The notes beneath the pieces were generated by a model. The model saw only the letters and a program-made list of their open reading frames with translations. It searched no databases and was not told the DNA's origin. A stretch of 38,438 nt of DNA from Clostridiaceae bacterium (GTDB taxonomy: Bacteria > Bacillota > Clostridia > CAYPLH01 > DUMO01), in assembly GCA_012839865.1 (NCBI GenBank), contig DUMO01000044.1, forward strand, positions 1 through 38,438. Direction: 5' to 3'. Position numbers and translations under genes: made by a program. This document shows positions 29,691-37,780 of this stretch, piece by piece (the first letter of the stretch is position 1; the number at the start of each line of letters is the position of its first letter).

Positions 29691-29732
29691 CTGTTCACCT
29701 TCTTTTTGCAAAAGTAAAAATTCTTGAAAATT

Positions 29733-29765
29733 AAAACAGCAGGAAACTCAATTTCCTGCTGTTTT
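29733..29765 (-). terminator. Intrinsic terminator of the second spore-protein gene
   Basis: AAAACAGCAGGAAA (29733-29746) and its exact complement (29752-29765) form a 14-bp stem with a 5-base loop. On the minus strand a T-rich run (TTTTAATTTT) follows. It lies 15 bases after the spore-protein stop and separates it from DUF421. Confidence 0.85.
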
Positions 29766-29779
29766 ATTAATTTAACTGC

Positions 29780-30156: not shown

Positions 30157-31344
30157 TTGAAACTTAAACTACGGCTTTGTATTTTCATAAGCATATTTTT
30201 TTGTTTAGCATTGTTTTGCCATGTAAAGGCAAATGAATTTGAAGAAGAACCTTTTGTTGGTGCAATTTACGACCTCTCCGGCCAGGTTGCCGGCAAGGTG
30301 CCGGATATCGATGCAAAAGCGGCAATCGTTATGGACACGGTTACAGGAAGAGTGCTTTATGAAAAAAATGCATATTCAAAAGTACCGATAGCGAGTACCA
30401 CAAAAATTATGACAGCAATTGTGGCACTGGAAAACGGAGACCTGAACGATATGGTTACTGTCAGCGAAAGGGCGGCATCAATATGGGGTTCCCGTGTAAA
30501 TCTTAAAATTGGCGAGCAAATATCCCTCCATGACCTTATGTACGGGATGATGATAAAATCGGGGAATGACGCGGCAATTGCAATTGCAGAACATATTGGC
30601 GGAACCGTTGAAAATTTTCTTGATATGATGAATAAAAAGGCCAGGGAATTAGGTGCGTATGATACTCAATTCAAGTCGCCCCATGGACTTGATATGGAAG
30701 GTCATTATTCGACAGCTTATGACCTTGCCCTTATTACCAGATACGCTCTTGAAAATCCTGTTTTTTCAAAAATAGTCTCTACGGTATCCATCAATATTAA
30801 AGACAGAAATCTGTACAATACAAATGAAATGCTGACTGTTTACCAAGGGGCTGACGGCGTCAAGACCGGATATACCGGCAAAGCGGGGAGGTGCCTTGTC
30901 ACATCGGCCACAAGGGAAAACTGGAGGATTATATCGGTTGTATTAAATTGCAGCAGCAGAACCCAAAGAGCCCGGTCCAGCAAGGCTATTCTGGATTATG
31001 CATTTAACAATTATAAATTTTACACTCTTTTATCTCCTGATGAGGTTCTTTGCAAGCTCCCGGTGGAAAACGGACTCAAGACCAGGACAACAATAGTACC
31101 TGTGGAGGGTGTAATACTTCCTCTCAGAGAAGATGAAGCCGCATTAATACAAAAAAAGGTTCAGTTGCCCGGGAAGATCAAAGCTCCTGTTTATTCAAAC
31201 ATAGAAGTGGGAAATGTGTCATTTTACTTAAGCGGAGAAGTATTGGCCACTACAAAACTGAAAACCGCGGATAACGTGGGGAAGAAGCGCTTTGGCCATT
31301 TCTTCATGGATGTTATTCTCGAGTGGTGCAATTTGATGCGGTAG
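30157..31344 (+). CDS. D-alanyl-D-alanine carboxypeptidase (DacF/PBP5-type)
   Basis: This 395-aa penicillin-binding protein removes the terminal D-Ala from peptidoglycan stem peptides. The signal peptide (residues 1-25, ending VKA) is clear. The active-site motifs are complete: STTK (S80, K83), SGN (135-137) and KTG (236-238). A C-terminal domain (about 290-395) contains the beta-rich part of PBP5-like proteins. The last 20 residues include FGHFFMDVILEWCNL, a possible amphipathic membrane anchor. The start is TTG 30157, with GGGTGGG 8 bases upstream. DacF-type enzymes often act in spore cortex synthesis, which fits the neighbouring spore genes. It is divergent from the spore protein across a 170-base gap. 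Confidence 0.93.
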   Translation: MKLKLRLCIFISIFFCLALFCHVKANEFEEEPFVGAIYDLSGQVAGKVPDIDAKAAIVMDTVTGRVLYEKNAYSKVPIASTTKIMTAIVALENGDLNDMVTVSERAASIWGSRVNLKIGEQISLHDLMYGMMIKSGNDAAIAIAEHIGGTVENFLDMMNKKARELGAYDTQFKSPHGLDMEGHYSTAYDLALITRYALENPVFSKIVSTVSINIKDRNLYNTNEMLTVYQGADGVKTGYTGKAGRCLVTSATRENWRIISVVLNCSSRTQRARSSKAILDYAFNNYKFYTLLSPDEVLCKLPVENGLKTRTTIVPVEGVILPLREDEAALIQKKVQLPGKIKAPVYSNIEVGNVSFYLSGEVLATTKLKTADNVGKKRFGHFFMDVILEWCNLMR

Positions 31345-31626: not shown

Positions 31627-33372
31627 GTGAAGACAATAATAACGGCTTTAAACTCAAAGTTCATACATTTATCCCTGGCCCCGTGGTATCTTAAGGAAGC
31701 CTGCAGAGACATCAGTGGCGAAATAAAGGTCATGGAATTCACCATAAATGATGAAATTAACTCCATACTTTCATTGCTGATTGCTGAAAAAGCCGATATA
31801 TATGCGTTTTCATGCTACATATGGAACATTGAGTATGTAATCAAGCTTTCATCAGATATAAAAAAAGTAATGCCAAAGTCGAAAATAGTATTGGGCGGTC
31901 CGGAAGTATCATTTAATGCGGATGAAATTCTCAATGATCATGATTTCATCGATTGCGTCATTTCCGGAGAAGGGGAAAAACCCTTCAGACATTTGCTGGA
32001 AGTGATCAGCCAAAAAAAAGAGGCATGTGTAATACCCGGCTTGAGCTTCCGGGATGAAAACGCCATTCAAATCGTAAATTCATACAACGTTGAACACTCT
32101 CTTGATGATGTCCCTTTTCCTTACACTGAAGAAATGATTAACGAAGCGAAAAATAAGATTATTTACTATGAGGCATCAAGAGGTTGCCCTTTTTCATGCA
32201 GTTACTGCCTCTCATCCACCTGCTCCGGAGTCAGGTATTTAAATTTTGAGAGGGTGAAATCTGAACTCACATGGTTGCTAAAAAAAGATATAGGTCAGAT
32301 CAAATTTGTGGACAGGACTTTTAATGCCAACAAGAAAAGAGCAAAAGAAATATTCAAATTTGTAATTGAAAACTGCAGAGAAGGCATTAATTTTCACTTT
32401 GAGGCTGCAGGTGACCTTTTTGATGATGAGATGCTGGAAATACTGCAATCTGCTCCTGCCGGGCTGATTCAATTTGAAATAGGAATACAATCCACCAACC
32501 CTGAAACTTTACTGGCAGTTAACAGAAAGACGGACATTGACAGGGTATTTTCCAATATTGCAAGGTTGCTGAAGCCCGGGAATATTCATGTGCATGTGGA
32601 CCTTATAGCGGGATTGCCCTATGAGACATATGAATTGTTCAAAAAATCCTTTAATGATGTTTACAACTTATCAGCCCATAATTTGCAACTGGGTTTCCTC
32701 AAATTGCTGAAAGGTTCGGGGCTTAGAAAAGATGCCGAAAAGTATGGAATAATATACCGGGATTATCCCCCTTATGAGATCCTTTCAAATAATTTTATCA
32801 CTTTTGATGAATTGGCAAAGCTTAAAAATATTGAGGAAGTTTTGGAGCGTTATTATAACAGCGGAAGGTTTGCGGAGAGTCTTAAATATTTGACAGGAAG
32901 ACTTTATAAAACCCCCTTTGATTTCTATTATGATTTTTCCGTCTACTTAAGAGAAACTGGTCAATTGGACAGGCCTGCAACTCTACAAAGCATGTATGAT
33001 TCATTGTTTTCTTTTATAGAAAATGAATTCAGCAAAGCACATGGAGAAATATTGAAGGACCTTATGAGGTTTGACTTTCTCAGAGCATTTCCTGCGGGAA
33101 AAATGCCTGAAAAAATAAACAAAATCACCGATATGGCGTTTCATAACAAATGCTTTGATTTTTTAAGGAACGAAAAAAATATCCATACATATCTTCCTGC
33201 CTATAAAGGCTGCCCTGCAAAGCAAATATACAAAAATGTCCATTTTGAACTATTCGATTATGACATTTTTTCATTTGATTTAAAAAGAAATGTAATTTTG
33301 TTTGATTATAAAGAAAAAAACAAGGTTACAGGTCTGTATAACTACCACGTCCTGGAAGATAGCCTGTCTTGA
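31627..33372 (+). CDS. B12-binding domain radical SAM protein with DUF4080-type C-terminus
   Basis: This 581-aa protein has an N-terminal cobalamin-binding-type domain (residues about 1-135). It includes ADIYAFSCYIWNIEYV, SKIVLGGPEVSF and ISGEGEKPF. The radical SAM domain follows, with CxxxCxxC at C187, C191 and C194 (RGCPFSCSYC), then GAGDLF-like EAAGDLFDDEML and IEIGIQSTNPETL. The C-terminal 200 residues (RDYPPYEILSNNFITFDEL and later) match DUF4080. The family is widespread in anaerobes, and its substrate is not established. The canonical cobalamin DxHxxG motif is not obvious, so B12 binding is inferred from the fold. GTG 31627 has an AAGAGG site. Confidence 0.92.
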   Translation: MKTIITALNSKFIHLSLAPWYLKEACRDISGEIKVMEFTINDEINSILSLLIAEKADIYAFSCYIWNIEYVIKLSSDIKKVMPKSKIVLGGPEVSFNADEILNDHDFIDCVISGEGEKPFRHLLEVISQKKEACVIPGLSFRDENAIQIVNSYNVEHSLDDVPFPYTEEMINEAKNKIIYYEASRGCPFSCSYCLSSTCSGVRYLNFERVKSELTWLLKKDIGQIKFVDRTFNANKKRAKEIFKFVIENCREGINFHFEAAGDLFDDEMLEILQSAPAGLIQFEIGIQSTNPETLLAVNRKTDIDRVFSNIARLLKPGNIHVHVDLIAGLPYETYELFKKSFNDVYNLSAHNLQLGFLKLLKGSGLRKDAEKYGIIYRDYPPYEILSNNFITFDELAKLKNIEEVLERYYNSGRFAESLKYLTGRLYKTPFDFYYDFSVYLRETGQLDRPATLQSMYDSLFSFIENEFSKAHGEILKDLMRFDFLRAFPAGKMPEKINKITDMAFHNKCFDFLRNEKNIHTYLPAYKGCPAKQIYKNVHFELFDYDIFSFDLKRNVILFDYKEKNKVTGLYNYHVLEDSLS

Positions 33373-33514
33373 TTTATTGCTGCTTCTGCCGGAACAGTAA
33401 CAAAAAATTCTAAAAAATCTGATAAAATAATGGAAAATCTCTTTAAATTTTACCAATTGTGATATAAAATAAATACCACATACTATAAATGGTTATAAAG
33501 TGGGGGCGTGTTTG

Positions 33515-34366
33515 ATGAGTGTAATAGATGCCTGCAAAAATCTGATAATTTGGCGCCTTTTTATTGGAAGAACCCGAATCCGCAGGAAAACCAGGTATGT
33601 AATCAAGTACTCCTACGCAAATCCATTGCCGGGTCAGGGGTTTATTATAAAAAAAGCCAGCCAGATTCCGCCCTGGCAATCCTGTGGGGTGCGCAATGAC
33701 CAAAGGATTTTCAATAAAAAAGGCAGTATTACCGTAGAAGCTTCTATAGTAATTACAACTTTGATTCTGGTTATTTATCTAATTATTTATGGCTGTCTAA
33801 TAATGTTTCATCATTCCTTTCTTCAAAGCACGGTATCAAAAGCAGCCAGGCTTGGAGCTGCAGCATGGGTGGACGTCAGAATGGACATAGAAACAGGAAA
33901 AATAGATTACGGAATAGAAAAAGATTCAATCTACAATGACATTTTCTTTGATGGAAGCACGGTTTATCATGAAATCCTGCATTTGGGGGAGGAAAACCCA
34001 GTAAACGGTGCAGGCAGCAGCAATGCCAGGATTGATAAAATCAGACAGGTTGTAATCAAGGGTTTATCAGGATCTATTATAAAACCTGTTTCCGCGGATT
34101 TGGAAATATGCTTCACAAACAACCTGATACAAAGACAGTTAAAGGTAACTATAACTCAAGAAGTAAAAGTGCCCTTTGGGTTCATAAAAGGATTGTTTAC
34201 AGACTGCGAAACCGTCAAAATTTCAGCCACCGGTGTTTCCACTGTTTCAGATCCAGCCGAATATATCCGCAACATAGATCTTGCTGTAGAGTATTTTCAC
34301 AAGTTTGGCAGACAGTTGAATATAGAAGAAAAGATAAAGGAGCTTAAGGAAAAGCTTATGCCATAA
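33515..34366 (+). CDS. TadE-like pilus or secretion protein
   Basis: This 283-aa protein has a prepilin-like segment, NKKGSITVEASIVITTLILVIYLIIYG, at residues about 66-92. The short basic stretch followed by GSITVEAS and one membrane helix is the TadE/TadF signature. The C-terminal domain (about 105-283) should face outside. The start is uncertain. ATG 33515 has GGGGGC 7 bases upstream, but the resulting 60-residue basic N-terminus is unlike the family. A later in-frame GTG (33689) would give a normal short leader but lacks a good site. A different frame (33508-33699) is also open across this region. It is the first of three TadE/TadG-like genes with small gaps. Confidence 0.75.
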   Translation: MSVIDACKNLIIWRLFIGRTRIRRKTRYVIKYSYANPLPGQGFIIKKASQIPPWQSCGVRNDQRIFNKKGSITVEASIVITTLILVIYLIIYGCLIMFHHSFLQSTVSKAARLGAAAWVDVRMDIETGKIDYGIEKDSIYNDIFFDGSTVYHEILHLGEENPVNGAGSSNARIDKIRQVVIKGLSGSIIKPVSADLEICFTNNLIQRQLKVTITQEVKVPFGFIKGLFTDCETVKISATGVSTVSDPAEYIRNIDLAVEYFHKFGRQLNIEEKIKELKEKLMP

Positions 34367-34453
34367 GCTCCCATTGTGGTTGATGCTATTAAAAATGATT
34401 TTAGCTTAAGTAATCCTGTGTATTATTTCATTTTTGCAAGGGGGGATGATAGA

Positions 34454-36649
34454 ATGCTGTTCAGAAGCTCTAAAGGGTCGGTTTCCGTTTTTCAGTGCCT
34501 TATACTGTTGAGTATATTAACTGTTGTCGGATTGATAGTGGATATTTCCAGGATACTGGTTGCCCAAAGAGAGGTGGAAAATGCCGTATCCTCTGCAGCC
34601 AGGTCAGTTTTGGCATCCTACAACAAAGATCTGGTCGGAGATTATGGCCTTTTTGCAATAGATGTATTTGGCGGAGAATTTTACGAAAATAAAAGAAATA
34701 TGTTTTTGGAATACCTAAAGCTCAATCTGGGGGTTGAAACTAACAGTTCATTTGGTTATATACGTTATTATATTGATGAAAGCCCGGAAAATATCGACAT
34801 TGAAGGTTTTATGAATATATCCGACAGGAATGTTATAAAAAGCCAGATTGTCGAGTATATGAAATATAAAGCACCTGTGACCATAATGGAAAGTATTGTG
34901 GACAAGTTCAAGGCTTCAGGTATTTTTAAGAAACTTGAATTTTCCAGGAAAGAAAAAGTAGTGAGGGAAAAAAGAAATGTTTTGAAAAAGCAAATCAACC
35001 AAACCAATAATAAATTAACTGAGATAAAGAATCTTTGCAGTGATAAAAAACCGGAAAACATGAAAAAGATGCTGAGTGCGCTGAATGAACTTAAGGAAAT
35101 GAACAGAGCCATAGTTGAACCATTGGAGGATTATCTTGAAGCCCAAAAAGATTCTGGTGAATTCAGTAAAAGTGTAATGGAGGAAGATCCTGAAATAGTA
35201 ATAAATATGACTCAAAATTCAGAATTTGATAAAGTAATGGATTTTTCAAACGCACTGGATGCTGATATAGAGATAAACAGGAGGGAACTTGCAAGGCTCG
35301 TAAGTGTCATTGATGGGCTTCTTAATGAAAAGGAAAAATTGACGGTTGATTTGAACAGCCTTTACAACGAGTATGATCAAGTGCAGGACAAGATTGATAG
35401 ATTGAAAAATGACATTGAAAATATAAACCGGCTGAAGAACAATATAGATGTCATAAAAAACGAGATTGGCATTTTGGAGGGAAAAATATATGAACTGAAA
35501 GAAGATTATGAACTAAATGAAGACGTTATTGAACTGCTTGAAATTAATGTTGAAAATCTAAGAGAAGAATTGGATTTTTATGAAAGCCAGCTGGATAAAT
35601 TCGGCCTGGAACAAATTGATGCGGAGCTTTGCGATGCCCAAAATGAACTTTGGTGTTTGGAATTGCAAATCAATGAAACCAAAGATAAAATCTGGGAAAT
35701 TGATAAAGAGATTGAAACTTTGGTTAATAGTTTCGAGCTTACAGGCATGTACCTTATAGAGGTAAGTGAACCTGTAAATGATGAATCTGAAAAGCCTGTT
35801 GATTCCGGAGAAAATTTGCTGCTGTCGGAACTTGAGCAAAGCATTGGCAATCTCCAGAGTCAATTTTTAAATACACTGGCTGGTGATCTGCTTCTTGAAA
35901 ACAGTCTGAAAACAGGAGAAGATTATGGAACGGGCGAACCATCTTTATTTGAAAATGAGGATGAAGGAAGAGCTGAAATACAGAATGACGGGATTATAAG
36001 TTTTTTGGACAGCTTGCAGGGTATCTTCAATGCAGCAATGGAAAAAGTATTTGTTGTAGAATACATACTGGACCGGTTTACCTATTTTACATCAGAGGTG
36101 GAGAGGGGACATTTCTTCCATAAGGGAGAAGCCGAGTATATATTATGGGGCGGAGAAAAGCAGATTGACAATATTGTTAAAACTTTTGGAAGCATATGGT
36201 TTTTGAGGTTTGCAGTCGACAGCATAGACAATTTTTGTACGAGCAAGAATCCACACCCTGTATTCCGCCTGATTTATTCGTTGGGGAAAGGATTCCTGGA
36301 TTCATGCAATGACATGTACCTTCTTTATAACGGTAAAAATATTGCCTTGAGTCCTTCCATACAGTCTGTTAAAATCAGCTATCCCGACCACCTTGGAATA
36401 TTTCTCCTTTTTCAGGCGGTTGTAAATGAAGATGAGCAGATAGATAATATAGTGCAATTGATACATGCAAACATAAAGCAGTCAAATCCTGAATTTCATA
36501 TAAGGCAGTACGGTACGGTAATTCGTTGCCAGGCAAATGTGGAAATCAATCTTTGGTTTTTGCCCCTTCTCCAATTGGAAAAAGTTGGTATAAACAGGTT
36601 TCGGAACGGTCGTTACGTAATATCGACAGAGGTATATGCAGGGTACTAG
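34454..36649 (+). CDS. TadG-like membrane protein with long coiled coil
   Basis: This 731-aa protein starts with a TadE/G-like N-terminus, FRSSKGSVSVFQCLILLSILTVVGLIVD (residues about 3-30), a membrane helix. VAQREVENAVSSAARSVLASYNK follows, as in DUF5702-type proteins. A long coiled-coil region (about 155-450) is rich in Glu, Lys, Asn and Leu heptads. The C-terminal 200 residues are mixed and include a conserved-looking YILWGGEKQIDNI block. ATG 34454 has AGGGGGGATGA upstream. The open frame extends 78 bases further without a site. It lies 87 bases after the first Tad-like gene. A surface or pilus-assembly role is inferred from the context. Confidence 0.75.
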   Translation: MLFRSSKGSVSVFQCLILLSILTVVGLIVDISRILVAQREVENAVSSAARSVLASYNKDLVGDYGLFAIDVFGGEFYENKRNMFLEYLKLNLGVETNSSFGYIRYYIDESPENIDIEGFMNISDRNVIKSQIVEYMKYKAPVTIMESIVDKFKASGIFKKLEFSRKEKVVREKRNVLKKQINQTNNKLTEIKNLCSDKKPENMKKMLSALNELKEMNRAIVEPLEDYLEAQKDSGEFSKSVMEEDPEIVINMTQNSEFDKVMDFSNALDADIEINRRELARLVSVIDGLLNEKEKLTVDLNSLYNEYDQVQDKIDRLKNDIENINRLKNNIDVIKNEIGILEGKIYELKEDYELNEDVIELLEINVENLREELDFYESQLDKFGLEQIDAELCDAQNELWCLELQINETKDKIWEIDKEIETLVNSFELTGMYLIEVSEPVNDESEKPVDSGENLLLSELEQSIGNLQSQFLNTLAGDLLLENSLKTGEDYGTGEPSLFENEDEGRAEIQNDGIISFLDSLQGIFNAAMEKVFVVEYILDRFTYFTSEVERGHFFHKGEAEYILWGGEKQIDNIVKTFGSIWFLRFAVDSIDNFCTSKNPHPVFRLIYSLGKGFLDSCNDMYLLYNGKNIALSPSIQSVKISYPDHLGIFLLFQAVVNEDEQIDNIVQLIHANIKQSNPEFHIRQYGTVIRCQANVEINLWFLPLLQLEKVGINRFRNGRYVISTEVYAGY

Positions 36650-36694
36650 GATCGCATGGGAAACAATCCTGAAAGAAAAGGATGGTAAAGCTGC

Positions 36695-37780
36695 ATGAGG
36701 AGGAATGAATTACTATTCAAATCAATAAAAAAGAACAACTGCAAAGGGGCCTTAACAGTTGAGGCGAGCCTCACTTTTCCTGTTTTTGTGTGTTTATTTT
36801 TGTTTCTGATCTTTTTCATCAAGATTGCAAGCATTAACATAATTCTTGACAATGCAGTAGTGGAAACTGCAAAGCAGCTTGCCACAAGCTGCTATCCGAT
36901 AGCTTATCTCAATGAACTGGAAGATGATTATATCCCCAATGATGTTGATGTTCAAAGCATACTAATTGAAGAATTCAAAGACATGGGAAATGCTGTTCTG
37001 GATGATAATTCAAACGTATATTCAGAAACCCTTGCCAAAATCATAAGCGGTAATGCCAGTGTTGATGACTTTAAAAATTTAATTGGCCAATTTGGAGAAA
37101 ACCTGCTGGAAAGAGGCTTGGACTGGTTTGCCGCCAGGGAAATTTCCAAGGTATATTTTGATATAAAACACAAGGCAGAGTATCTTGCAGCATCTTCACT
37201 AATGAAAAATCATATTGCCAATACATGGCTTTCCCCGGACCAACTTGAGATTACTTTTATTTCATTTCCTTCAAGTGTGTCTGAATTAGAATTAAGGCAG
37301 AATAGCGGCTTATATCTGGCAAAATGCAGTCAAATCGGCTATATACCCGGGCAGGATGAAGTTGTGATAGTTGTTGAATATAAAACCGGTTTAAGCATTC
37401 CCTTTTTTTCTGCAAAGGAAATCGTTATCAGAAAGTGGGCAGTAGAGAAGGCATGGCTGAACGGAAGCTATGGGGTTTACGCCATCCATAGCCTGACAGC
37501 AGATGAAAGCCAGGGAGGTGATAATGAAAATAATAATGAAAACAGCGGTGAAAATAATGTATATGAAAATGAATATGATGTTAAGGGCGAGGAGTATTTT
37601 GACGAAGAATATAAAGGCAATCAAAAAATATATAAAACTAAAACAGGAACGAGATACCACATGGAAGGCTGCATGTATTTAAGAATGAGCAAGATCCCCA
37701 TAACAATATCACAAGCGGAGAAGGAAGGGCTTAAGCCTTGTAAAATTTGCATTCAGGGCATGAAACCCTTTGGACGGTAG
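36695..37780 (+). CDS. TadE-like protein with C-terminal zinc-type HxxxC/CxxC motif
   Basis: This 361-aa protein has a prepilin-like N-terminus, CKGALTVEASLTFPVFVCLFLFLIFF (residues about 16-41). An extracytoplasmic region (about 45-270) follows. An Asn/Glu/Asp-rich low-complexity linker (about 272-307) leads to a C-terminal module, TGTRYHMEGCMYLR with H322 and C326, then GLKPCKIC with C349 and C352. This four-residue set resembles zinc-binding Ada-like modules attached to other exported clostridial proteins. GGATGG is 11 bases before the ATG. It follows the coiled-coil gene after 45 bases and is probably in the same transcript. The last residues are MKPFGR, so the module is at the very end. 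Confidence 0.75.
   Translation: MRRNELLFKSIKKNNCKGALTVEASLTFPVFVCLFLFLIFFIKIASINIILDNAVVETAKQLATSCYPIAYLNELEDDYIPNDVDVQSILIEEFKDMGNAVLDDNSNVYSETLAKIISGNASVDDFKNLIGQFGENLLERGLDWFAAREISKVYFDIKHKAEYLAASSLMKNHIANTWLSPDQLEITFISFPSSVSELELRQNSGLYLAKCSQIGYIPGQDEVVIVVEYKTGLSIPFFSAKEIVIRKWAVEKAWLNGSYGVYAIHSLTADESQGGDNENNNENSGENNVYENEYDVKGEEYFDEEYKGNQKIYKTKTGTRYHMEGCMYLRMSKIPITISQAEKEGLKPCKICIQGMKPFGR

Follow-up and report, generated by a model that had tools for sequence, protein, structure and literature searches.

Introduction

Previous studies have described the Kil Tip complexes of Myxococcus, which consist of a short TadE-like pilin, a large TadG-like extremity subunit, and a TadF-like pilin whose tail is extended (PMC12075869). 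Tight adherence (tad) loci with TadE pseudopilins and Flp-like pilins lacking Tyr+6 have been reported in Gram-positive bacteria, and tad was found to be most widespread in Clostridia (PMC3244431). The Tad system has been described as almost exclusively single-locus (PMC6668835), and two complementary tad islands are jointly needed for the competence pili of Micrococcus luteus (PMC4322843). In the present study, we analyzed contig DUMO01000044.1 of a Clostridiaceae bacterium (hereafter C33), the whole of which, 38,438 bases, is the window; the draft genome comprises 2.74 Mb in 89 contigs. The window carries three adjacent TadE/TadG-like genes (T1, T2, and T3). The products of this trio very probably form the minor-pilin complex at the tip of a Tad/Flp (type IVc) pilus, where they would act in priming; the machine of this pilus would be supplied in trans from another contig, C4.

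The comparisons with known systems relate to the sections of the cited reports considered here. The trio is like KilM/KilN/KilL of Myxococcus in its three genes, namely a TadE-like gene, a large TadG-like gene with an extra domain, and a TadF-like gene with an extended C-terminus, and Myxococcus also encodes further tip clusters as separate gene clusters. The Kil system differs in belonging to a predatory diderm, in having several paralogous tips, and in the cleavage site reported for all three subunits, whereas the present family has a monoderm-type machine, one set in most genomes, and a T2 without Glu+5; the helical stalk and the Ada-like tail described below were not found in those sections of the Kil description (PMC12075869). 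The Gram-positive tad loci have the same machine genes, and the pilin on C4 (Glu+5, Ile+6) fits the Flp-like description; a detached trio and DUF5702 or Ada-like proteins are not described in the sections of that account considered (PMC3244431). In M. luteus, one island supplies TadE/F/TadG to the Flp pilus of the other and a local tadV is absent, which resembles the present arrangement, but each of its islands has a tadA and the trio stands without machine genes (PMC4322843). For Clostridia, an operon resembling a secretion system and encoding CpaF and PilC-like proteins has also been predicted (PMC9523054). Gram-positive tad loci, Flp-like pilins, and separately encoded Myxococcus tips are already known; in the open-licence PMC papers searched, we found no description of detached clostridial Tad tips and no use of the name DUF5702.

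The Trio on Contig C33

All three genes are intact open reading frames (ORFs) in the same orientation on the forward strand. T1 (33,515–34,366) encodes a TadE-like minor prepilin in the KilM/TadE position, and its homologues precede T2 in most Clostridia; its ATG at 33,515 lies within an ORF open from a GTG at 33,500. T2 (34,454–36,649, with an alternative GTG at 34,376) encodes a large TadG-like membrane-anchored protein of the DUF5702 family, and T3 (36,695–37,780) encodes a TadE/TadF-like prepilin that carries a Gly|ALTVE motif and ends in an Ada-like His-Cys-Cys-Cys domain at about 37,625–37,755. An earlier note, made from the sequence alone, had pointed to GSITVEAS, GSVSVFQ, and GALTVEAS segments in three consecutive genes of a Tad-like family, and we found each segment at the start of an N-terminal hydrophobic stretch. 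The family assignment was borne out by Pfam: T1 matched TadE (E 6.5e-6, 26.6 bits against a cut-off of 22.9), T2 matched Tad/PF13400, the TadG-like N-terminus (E 2.9e-5, 24.7 bits, cut-off 22.3), and the last 182 residues of T2 matched DUF5702/PF18960 (E 1.1e-6, 28.3 bits, cut-off 26), which was not among the matches at E<=0.1 when full-length T2 was scanned. T3 is borderline, since its TadE match was slightly below the cut-off in the protein scan (E 9.1e-4, 19.7 bits) and above it in the genome search (24.0 bits). The NCBIfam scan of T2 returned coiled-coil chance matches only. The layout of T2 comprises an N-terminal helix, a long helical (coiled-coil) insert, and a conserved C-terminal domain, and its homologues keep a QI.EYMKYRAP segment. 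Three adjacent family matches, with the same adjacency in dozens of genomes, are far beyond chance.

The Gly-1/Glu+5 prepilin motif is present in T1 (GSITVE) and T3 (GALTVE). Glu+5 was found in 79 of 82 T1 homologues and 75 of 78 T3 homologues, figures that lean upward because the motif finder rewards Glu+5. Residue +5 of T2 is Phe, as in 62 of 87 T2 homologues, so that T2 is TadG-like rather than a canonical prepilin. In this detail the result differs from the earlier note, as only T1 and T3 have Glu+5. The annotated leader of T1 before the cleavage Gly is about 70 residues long (window 33,500–33,700), compared with 8–25 residues in most homologues, and its start codon is uncertain for this reason; translation may begin at a more internal codon, or the segment may represent a 5' leader.

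A Matching Machine Elsewhere in the Genome

As the earlier note had stated, ATPase, platform, and peptidase genes are missing from the window: no T2SSE, T2SSF, or A24 peptidase family match was found anywhere on C33. Searching the genome for the machinery located it on C4, where TadZ, TadA, TadB, TadC, a 79-residue Flp1-like pilin, and an FHA/DUF6382 protein are encoded in one run (the TadB match, at 20.1 bits, is below the T2SSF cut-off). No TadE/TadG gene was found in this locus. The FHA gene directly follows the pilin gene, and relatives carry T1-T2-T3 exactly between these two. The note had offered two explanations for an orphan trio: the remainder of the locus may lie at another place, or the trio may act with a different machine. 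The former is supported by the matching trio-less machine on C4; the trio is an orphan in gene position but probably not in function, and the C4 machine lacks exactly these genes. In this genome, the trio lies outside the tad locus, on C33 and not on C4.

Further systems are present. Contig C6 carries a second, full Tad locus (tadC, tadB, tadA, tadZ, cpaB, and its own tadG and tadE), and C66 gave matches of the type IV pilus kind. Two A24 peptidases were found, a PilD-like enzyme on C53, which is the sole chromosomal-type candidate, and another on C14, on a mobile element only. The latter belongs to a mobile-element-like, Tad-like locus (L015, C14:1–15,000) that comprises the A24 peptidase gene, CpaB-, TadA-, and TadB/C-like genes, two TadE-like genes, and a RadC-like gene, labels that were assigned by eye except for the ATPase and the peptidase.

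Gene Order and Co-Occurrence in Clostridia

The usual clostridial order is tadZ-A-B-C-flp-T1-T2-T3-FHA in one locus. The gene calls in relatives are ORFs compared by BLAST with a small reference set, so absent genes may have been missed. Among 13 relatives' loci, the trio was beside C4-type tad genes in nine. In the other four (G085, G083, G022, and G002), the trio genes stood without a tad gene in the examined stretch, and C4-type tad genes without a trio were carried elsewhere, seen only in part in G083 and G002 owing to contig ends. We then compared 90 T2 loci, namely the window, the best 80 of 195 relatives returned by a named-genome scan, and nine further loci after four duplicates were dropped. 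A locus was called unlinked when it had no TadA/B/C match and, in addition, either at least 4 kb of sequence on both sides or a DacA/DUF4080-type neighbor; accordingly, 59 were linked to a machine, 18 were unlinked, and 13 could not be judged. Among 17 genomes with a detached or possibly detached T2, TadA was found at E<=1e-60 in 16 and was C4-type in 15. Sixteen machine regions were fetched: 10 held no trio gene, three were cut by contig ends, two (G414 and G423) held T1 and T3 without T2, and one was of the C6 Tad type. The trio-less regions and those keeping T1 and T3 indicated that detachment can involve the complete trio or only T2. Acetivibrio alkalicellulosi (L131) is among the relatives with a detached T2 or trio. 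T2 copies standing alone were observed in G252, G371, and G298.

The co-occurrence of the trio with the machine across clostridia was evaluated in 393 genomes of the class, with C4-type TadA set at E<=1e-118 and strong T2 at E<=1e-20. C4-type TadA was found in 84 of 131 genomes with T2 compared with 1 of 262 without, a contrast in which the genomes are related, so that the counts are not independent and a p-value is not a proper test. Put the other way, 84 of the 85 genomes with C4-type TadA also carried T2, the exception being G358. Among strong-T2 genomes, 65 of 73 had C4-type TadA. In G353, one of the remaining eight, tadA is in two pieces on two contigs; in G058 it is interrupted; five have a TadA of 49–52% identity; and the last is G323. 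T2 and C4-type TadA thus co-occur in this set.

Several loci in this comparison showed arrangements of their own. In G313, L185 holds two T2 paralogues, a single T3, and small genes of lipoprotein-like type; the machine, which keeps T1, lies 539 kb away, possibly in a multiple-tip arrangement. In the single-contig genome G188 (L197/L198), about 25 kb of foreign genes, including one for an nSTAND3 protein, lie between tadC and T1. In G384 (L196), a C4-type tadA is followed by an A24 peptidase gene with no other tad gene in 20 kb, and the machine itself seems dispersed. In Ruminiclostridium sufflavum (L058:4603–6741 and L042:7207–7848; named in L114), an insert of about 38 kb interrupts tadA inside its Walker A codons. 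A gene for a serine recombinase lies next to the junction, so that this pilus motor gene carries what resembles a skin element.

Recurrent Separation of the Trio from the Machine

In the 65 genomes with strong T2 and C4-type TadA, the two genes were within 15 kb of each other in 41 and not in 24. The latter figure is an upper bound, as 19 of the 24 had them on different contigs; the family belongs to the same superfamily as the Tad systems described as almost exclusively single-locus (PMC6668835, in the sections considered). The five same-contig separations were 32 kb in G188 (an insertion), 75 kb in G181 (a split between tadA and tadB), 539 kb in G313, 896 kb in G252, and 991 kb in G298. G205 has a second, linked pair and was counted as linked, and its other trio lies 1.3 Mb from the other machine. 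Because single-contig relatives show it, the separation cannot be put down to assembly alone. Mapping the unlinked label onto the T2 tree required 11 changes, and well-supported branches forced six of them; the count was seven when the undetermined rows were omitted. The six forced changes indicated that the separation is recurrent.

This bears on the explanation that C33 and C4 are neighbors and that the locus has only been rearranged over some kilobases. The trio is 658 bases from the C33 end, tadZ is 2,991 bases from the C4 start, and the C4 end lies within a signalling-type gene, all of which would fit such a juncture. The C33 end falls inside an unrelated ORF, the two contig ends show no overlap, the C33 end is single-copy, and the joined order would be trio-regulators-tadZABC-flp-FHA, which is non-standard. 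Together with the true separation in single-contig relatives, these observations make an assembly effect unlikely, and no complete linked Tad locus was seen beside the window.

The window trio is preceded by genes for a D-Ala-D-Ala carboxypeptidase and a B12-binding/radical SAM DUF4080 protein. Of the 80 named loci, 10 likewise have DacA and/or DUF4080 ahead of a detached trio, as do G238 and G384. In L093, a DUF4080 gene (without dacA) stands directly before a complete tadZ-A-B-C-flp-T1-T2-T3-FHA locus, and in the single-contig genome G205, dacA and DUF4080 precede tadZ-A-B-C-flp without the trio. The radical SAM neighbors in L120 and L124 were not counted as DUF4080 proteins (24–27% over about 210 residues). 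Since the same site holds the full locus, the trio alone, or the machine alone, the fragmentation of one ancestral locus is suggested, and the simplest reading, which we infer from gene order, is that an ancestral tad locus at the dacA-DUF4080 site came apart and that one or the other part remained there. In the T2 tree, the window grouped with L089 (detached) and L046 with moderate support (87) and did not group with the other dacA-side trios.

A Proposed Tip Complex Working in Trans

The assignment of the trio as a tip complex served by the C4 machine is based on gene content, orthology, conserved order elsewhere, co-occurrence, and recurrent separation; the processing, assembly, tip position, and contact role given here would follow from it. 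T1 and T3 would enter the membrane, and an A24 prepilin peptidase, probably the PilD-like enzyme on C53 borrowed for this purpose, would cut them after Gly. Prepilin peptidases have been reported to be exchanged among systems (PMC6668835). In G412 and G238, an A24 prepilin peptidase gene overlaps the end of a detached T3, an arrangement that appears to tie the trio to prepilin processing. T1, T2, and T3 would then bundle via their N-terminal helices, with T2 (TadG/KilN-like) at the extremity, carrying its long helical stalk. This complex would prime the polymerisation of the Flp-like pilin by TadA/B/C, and the tip would be exposed beyond the wall, with the stalk of T2 and the Ada-like zinc-type domain of T3 as the putative contact parts. 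The present separation would have arisen by fragmentation of an ancestral single locus beside dacA and the DUF4080 radical SAM gene.

Several observations weigh against this assignment. In G358, the machine occurs with T1 and T3 in the absence of T2, which may therefore be dispensable; conversely, G323 has a strong T2 without a Tad TadA, G424 has T2 without any TadA, and the only TadA accompanying the detached trio of G411 is C6-type. The lack of Glu+5 in T2 departs from the prepilin pattern, and a dedicated TadV-type peptidase was found in none of the examined stretches of C4, C6, and C33. The structure models of T2 and T3 matched no PDB fold at E<=0.001. Finally, C33 and C4 may be physically joined through a gap left in the assembly of this draft genome.

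The trio might instead be an extra tip set for the full C6 Tad locus, as a second Tad system does exist in the genome and the detached trio of G411 occurs with a C6-type TadA only. We regard this as very unlikely, as the C6 locus already encodes a TadE and a TadG and has a machine family to itself, linked loci everywhere pair the trio with a C4-type machine, and it is C4 that has no TadE/TadG of its own. That the trio is a decaying relic left when the machine moved would agree with the broken gene order and with G111, in which only T2 fragments are present, two of them with stops, so that loss does happen; three open ORFs with conserved motifs in the window and intact detached trios in several diverged lineages make such decay highly improbable. 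There is hardly any likelihood that the trio serves the C66 type IV pilus or the C14 mobile system, although both machines, and A24 peptidases, are present in the genome, as linked trios lie beside C4-type genes (13 relatives and 80 named loci; linkage to type IV pilus genes was not searched for) and the C14 locus has its own TadE-like genes.

Across the class, this family has its tip genes set apart as a unit of their own in several lineages, against the single-locus norm, and a single genomic site is seen with the entire locus, only the tip, or only the machine. These lineages provide a natural experiment on the modularity of tip complexes. The finding helps to name DUF5702 proteins, and tad-locus detectors may score such genomes as incomplete.

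The Ada-Like Tail of T3 and the Structure Models

The C-terminus of the window T3 reads TGTRYHMEGC-x22-CKIC. The same pattern occurs in L046, L090, L091, L094, L111, L115, L133, and L156, and twice in L050; by one script it was counted in 9 of 78 T3 homologues. The ligand pattern H-x3-C...C-x2-C is kept in most rows of the T3-tail alignment (A2), and other T3 proteins mostly carry a different C-terminal domain. The tail reached 12.8 bits against Pfam Ada_Zn_binding/PF02805 (E 0.12), below the cut-off of 23. Residues 309–353 of the T3 model, which is of low confidence, gave a weak match to N-Ada 1u8b (Z 3.6, root-mean-square deviation 2.1, 45 residues). The tail would bind zinc. The position of one Ada ligand, Cys38, is His in the window T3, and Ada methyl-transfer chemistry is therefore unlikely. 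A PDB sequence search with the tail gave no match, and searches of plasmid and phage records gave one match each with uninformative annotation. Such tails presumably also occur in nucleases or ComEC-like proteins, which the plasmid and phage searches did not confirm.

The structure models are single chains of low confidence. The T2 model (predicted template modelling score, pTM, 0.49) shows the N-terminal helix, the long helical insert, and the conserved ends, and the T3 model (pTM 0.53) has an N-terminal helix together with a small sheet and the tail. In a second structural comparison (VIA), T3 residues 25–258 reached Z 5.5, to unrelated folds. No pilin appeared in the structural match lists, but a pilin fold may nevertheless be present.

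It is conceivable, although we think it quite unlikely, that the tip is an independently placed, exchangeable cassette, in which the N-Ada-like zinc domain of the window group binds DNA or a phosphate-rich surface polymer, making the structure a DNA-catching or uptake pilus. If so, the variable T3 tails, the lone T2 copies of G252, G371, and G298, and the two T2 copies of G313 would be a means of target change.

Neighboring Features of the Window

The two genes upstream of the trio, both on the forward strand, were identified by Pfam. The B12-binding/radical SAM protein with DUF4080 is encoded at 31,627–33,372, next to the trio, and is probably not part of the pilus; it marks the presumed ancestral tad site. 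The D-Ala-D-Ala carboxypeptidase (Peptidase_S11, dacA) at 30,157–31,344 is the second marker of this site. An Rfam scan for a riboswitch or RNA leader upstream of T1 found no family near the trio, with sub-threshold chance matches only. The promoter scan was uninformative (32 promoter-like sites compared with 16.4 expected by shuffling), as was the terminator scan (four terminator-like sites compared with 2.9). A plant miRNA match at 29,721–29,776 was rejected as spurious. This interval, between two genes, holds a near-perfect inverted repeat, AAAACAGCAGGAAA / TTTCCTGCTGTTTT, which is probably a terminator.
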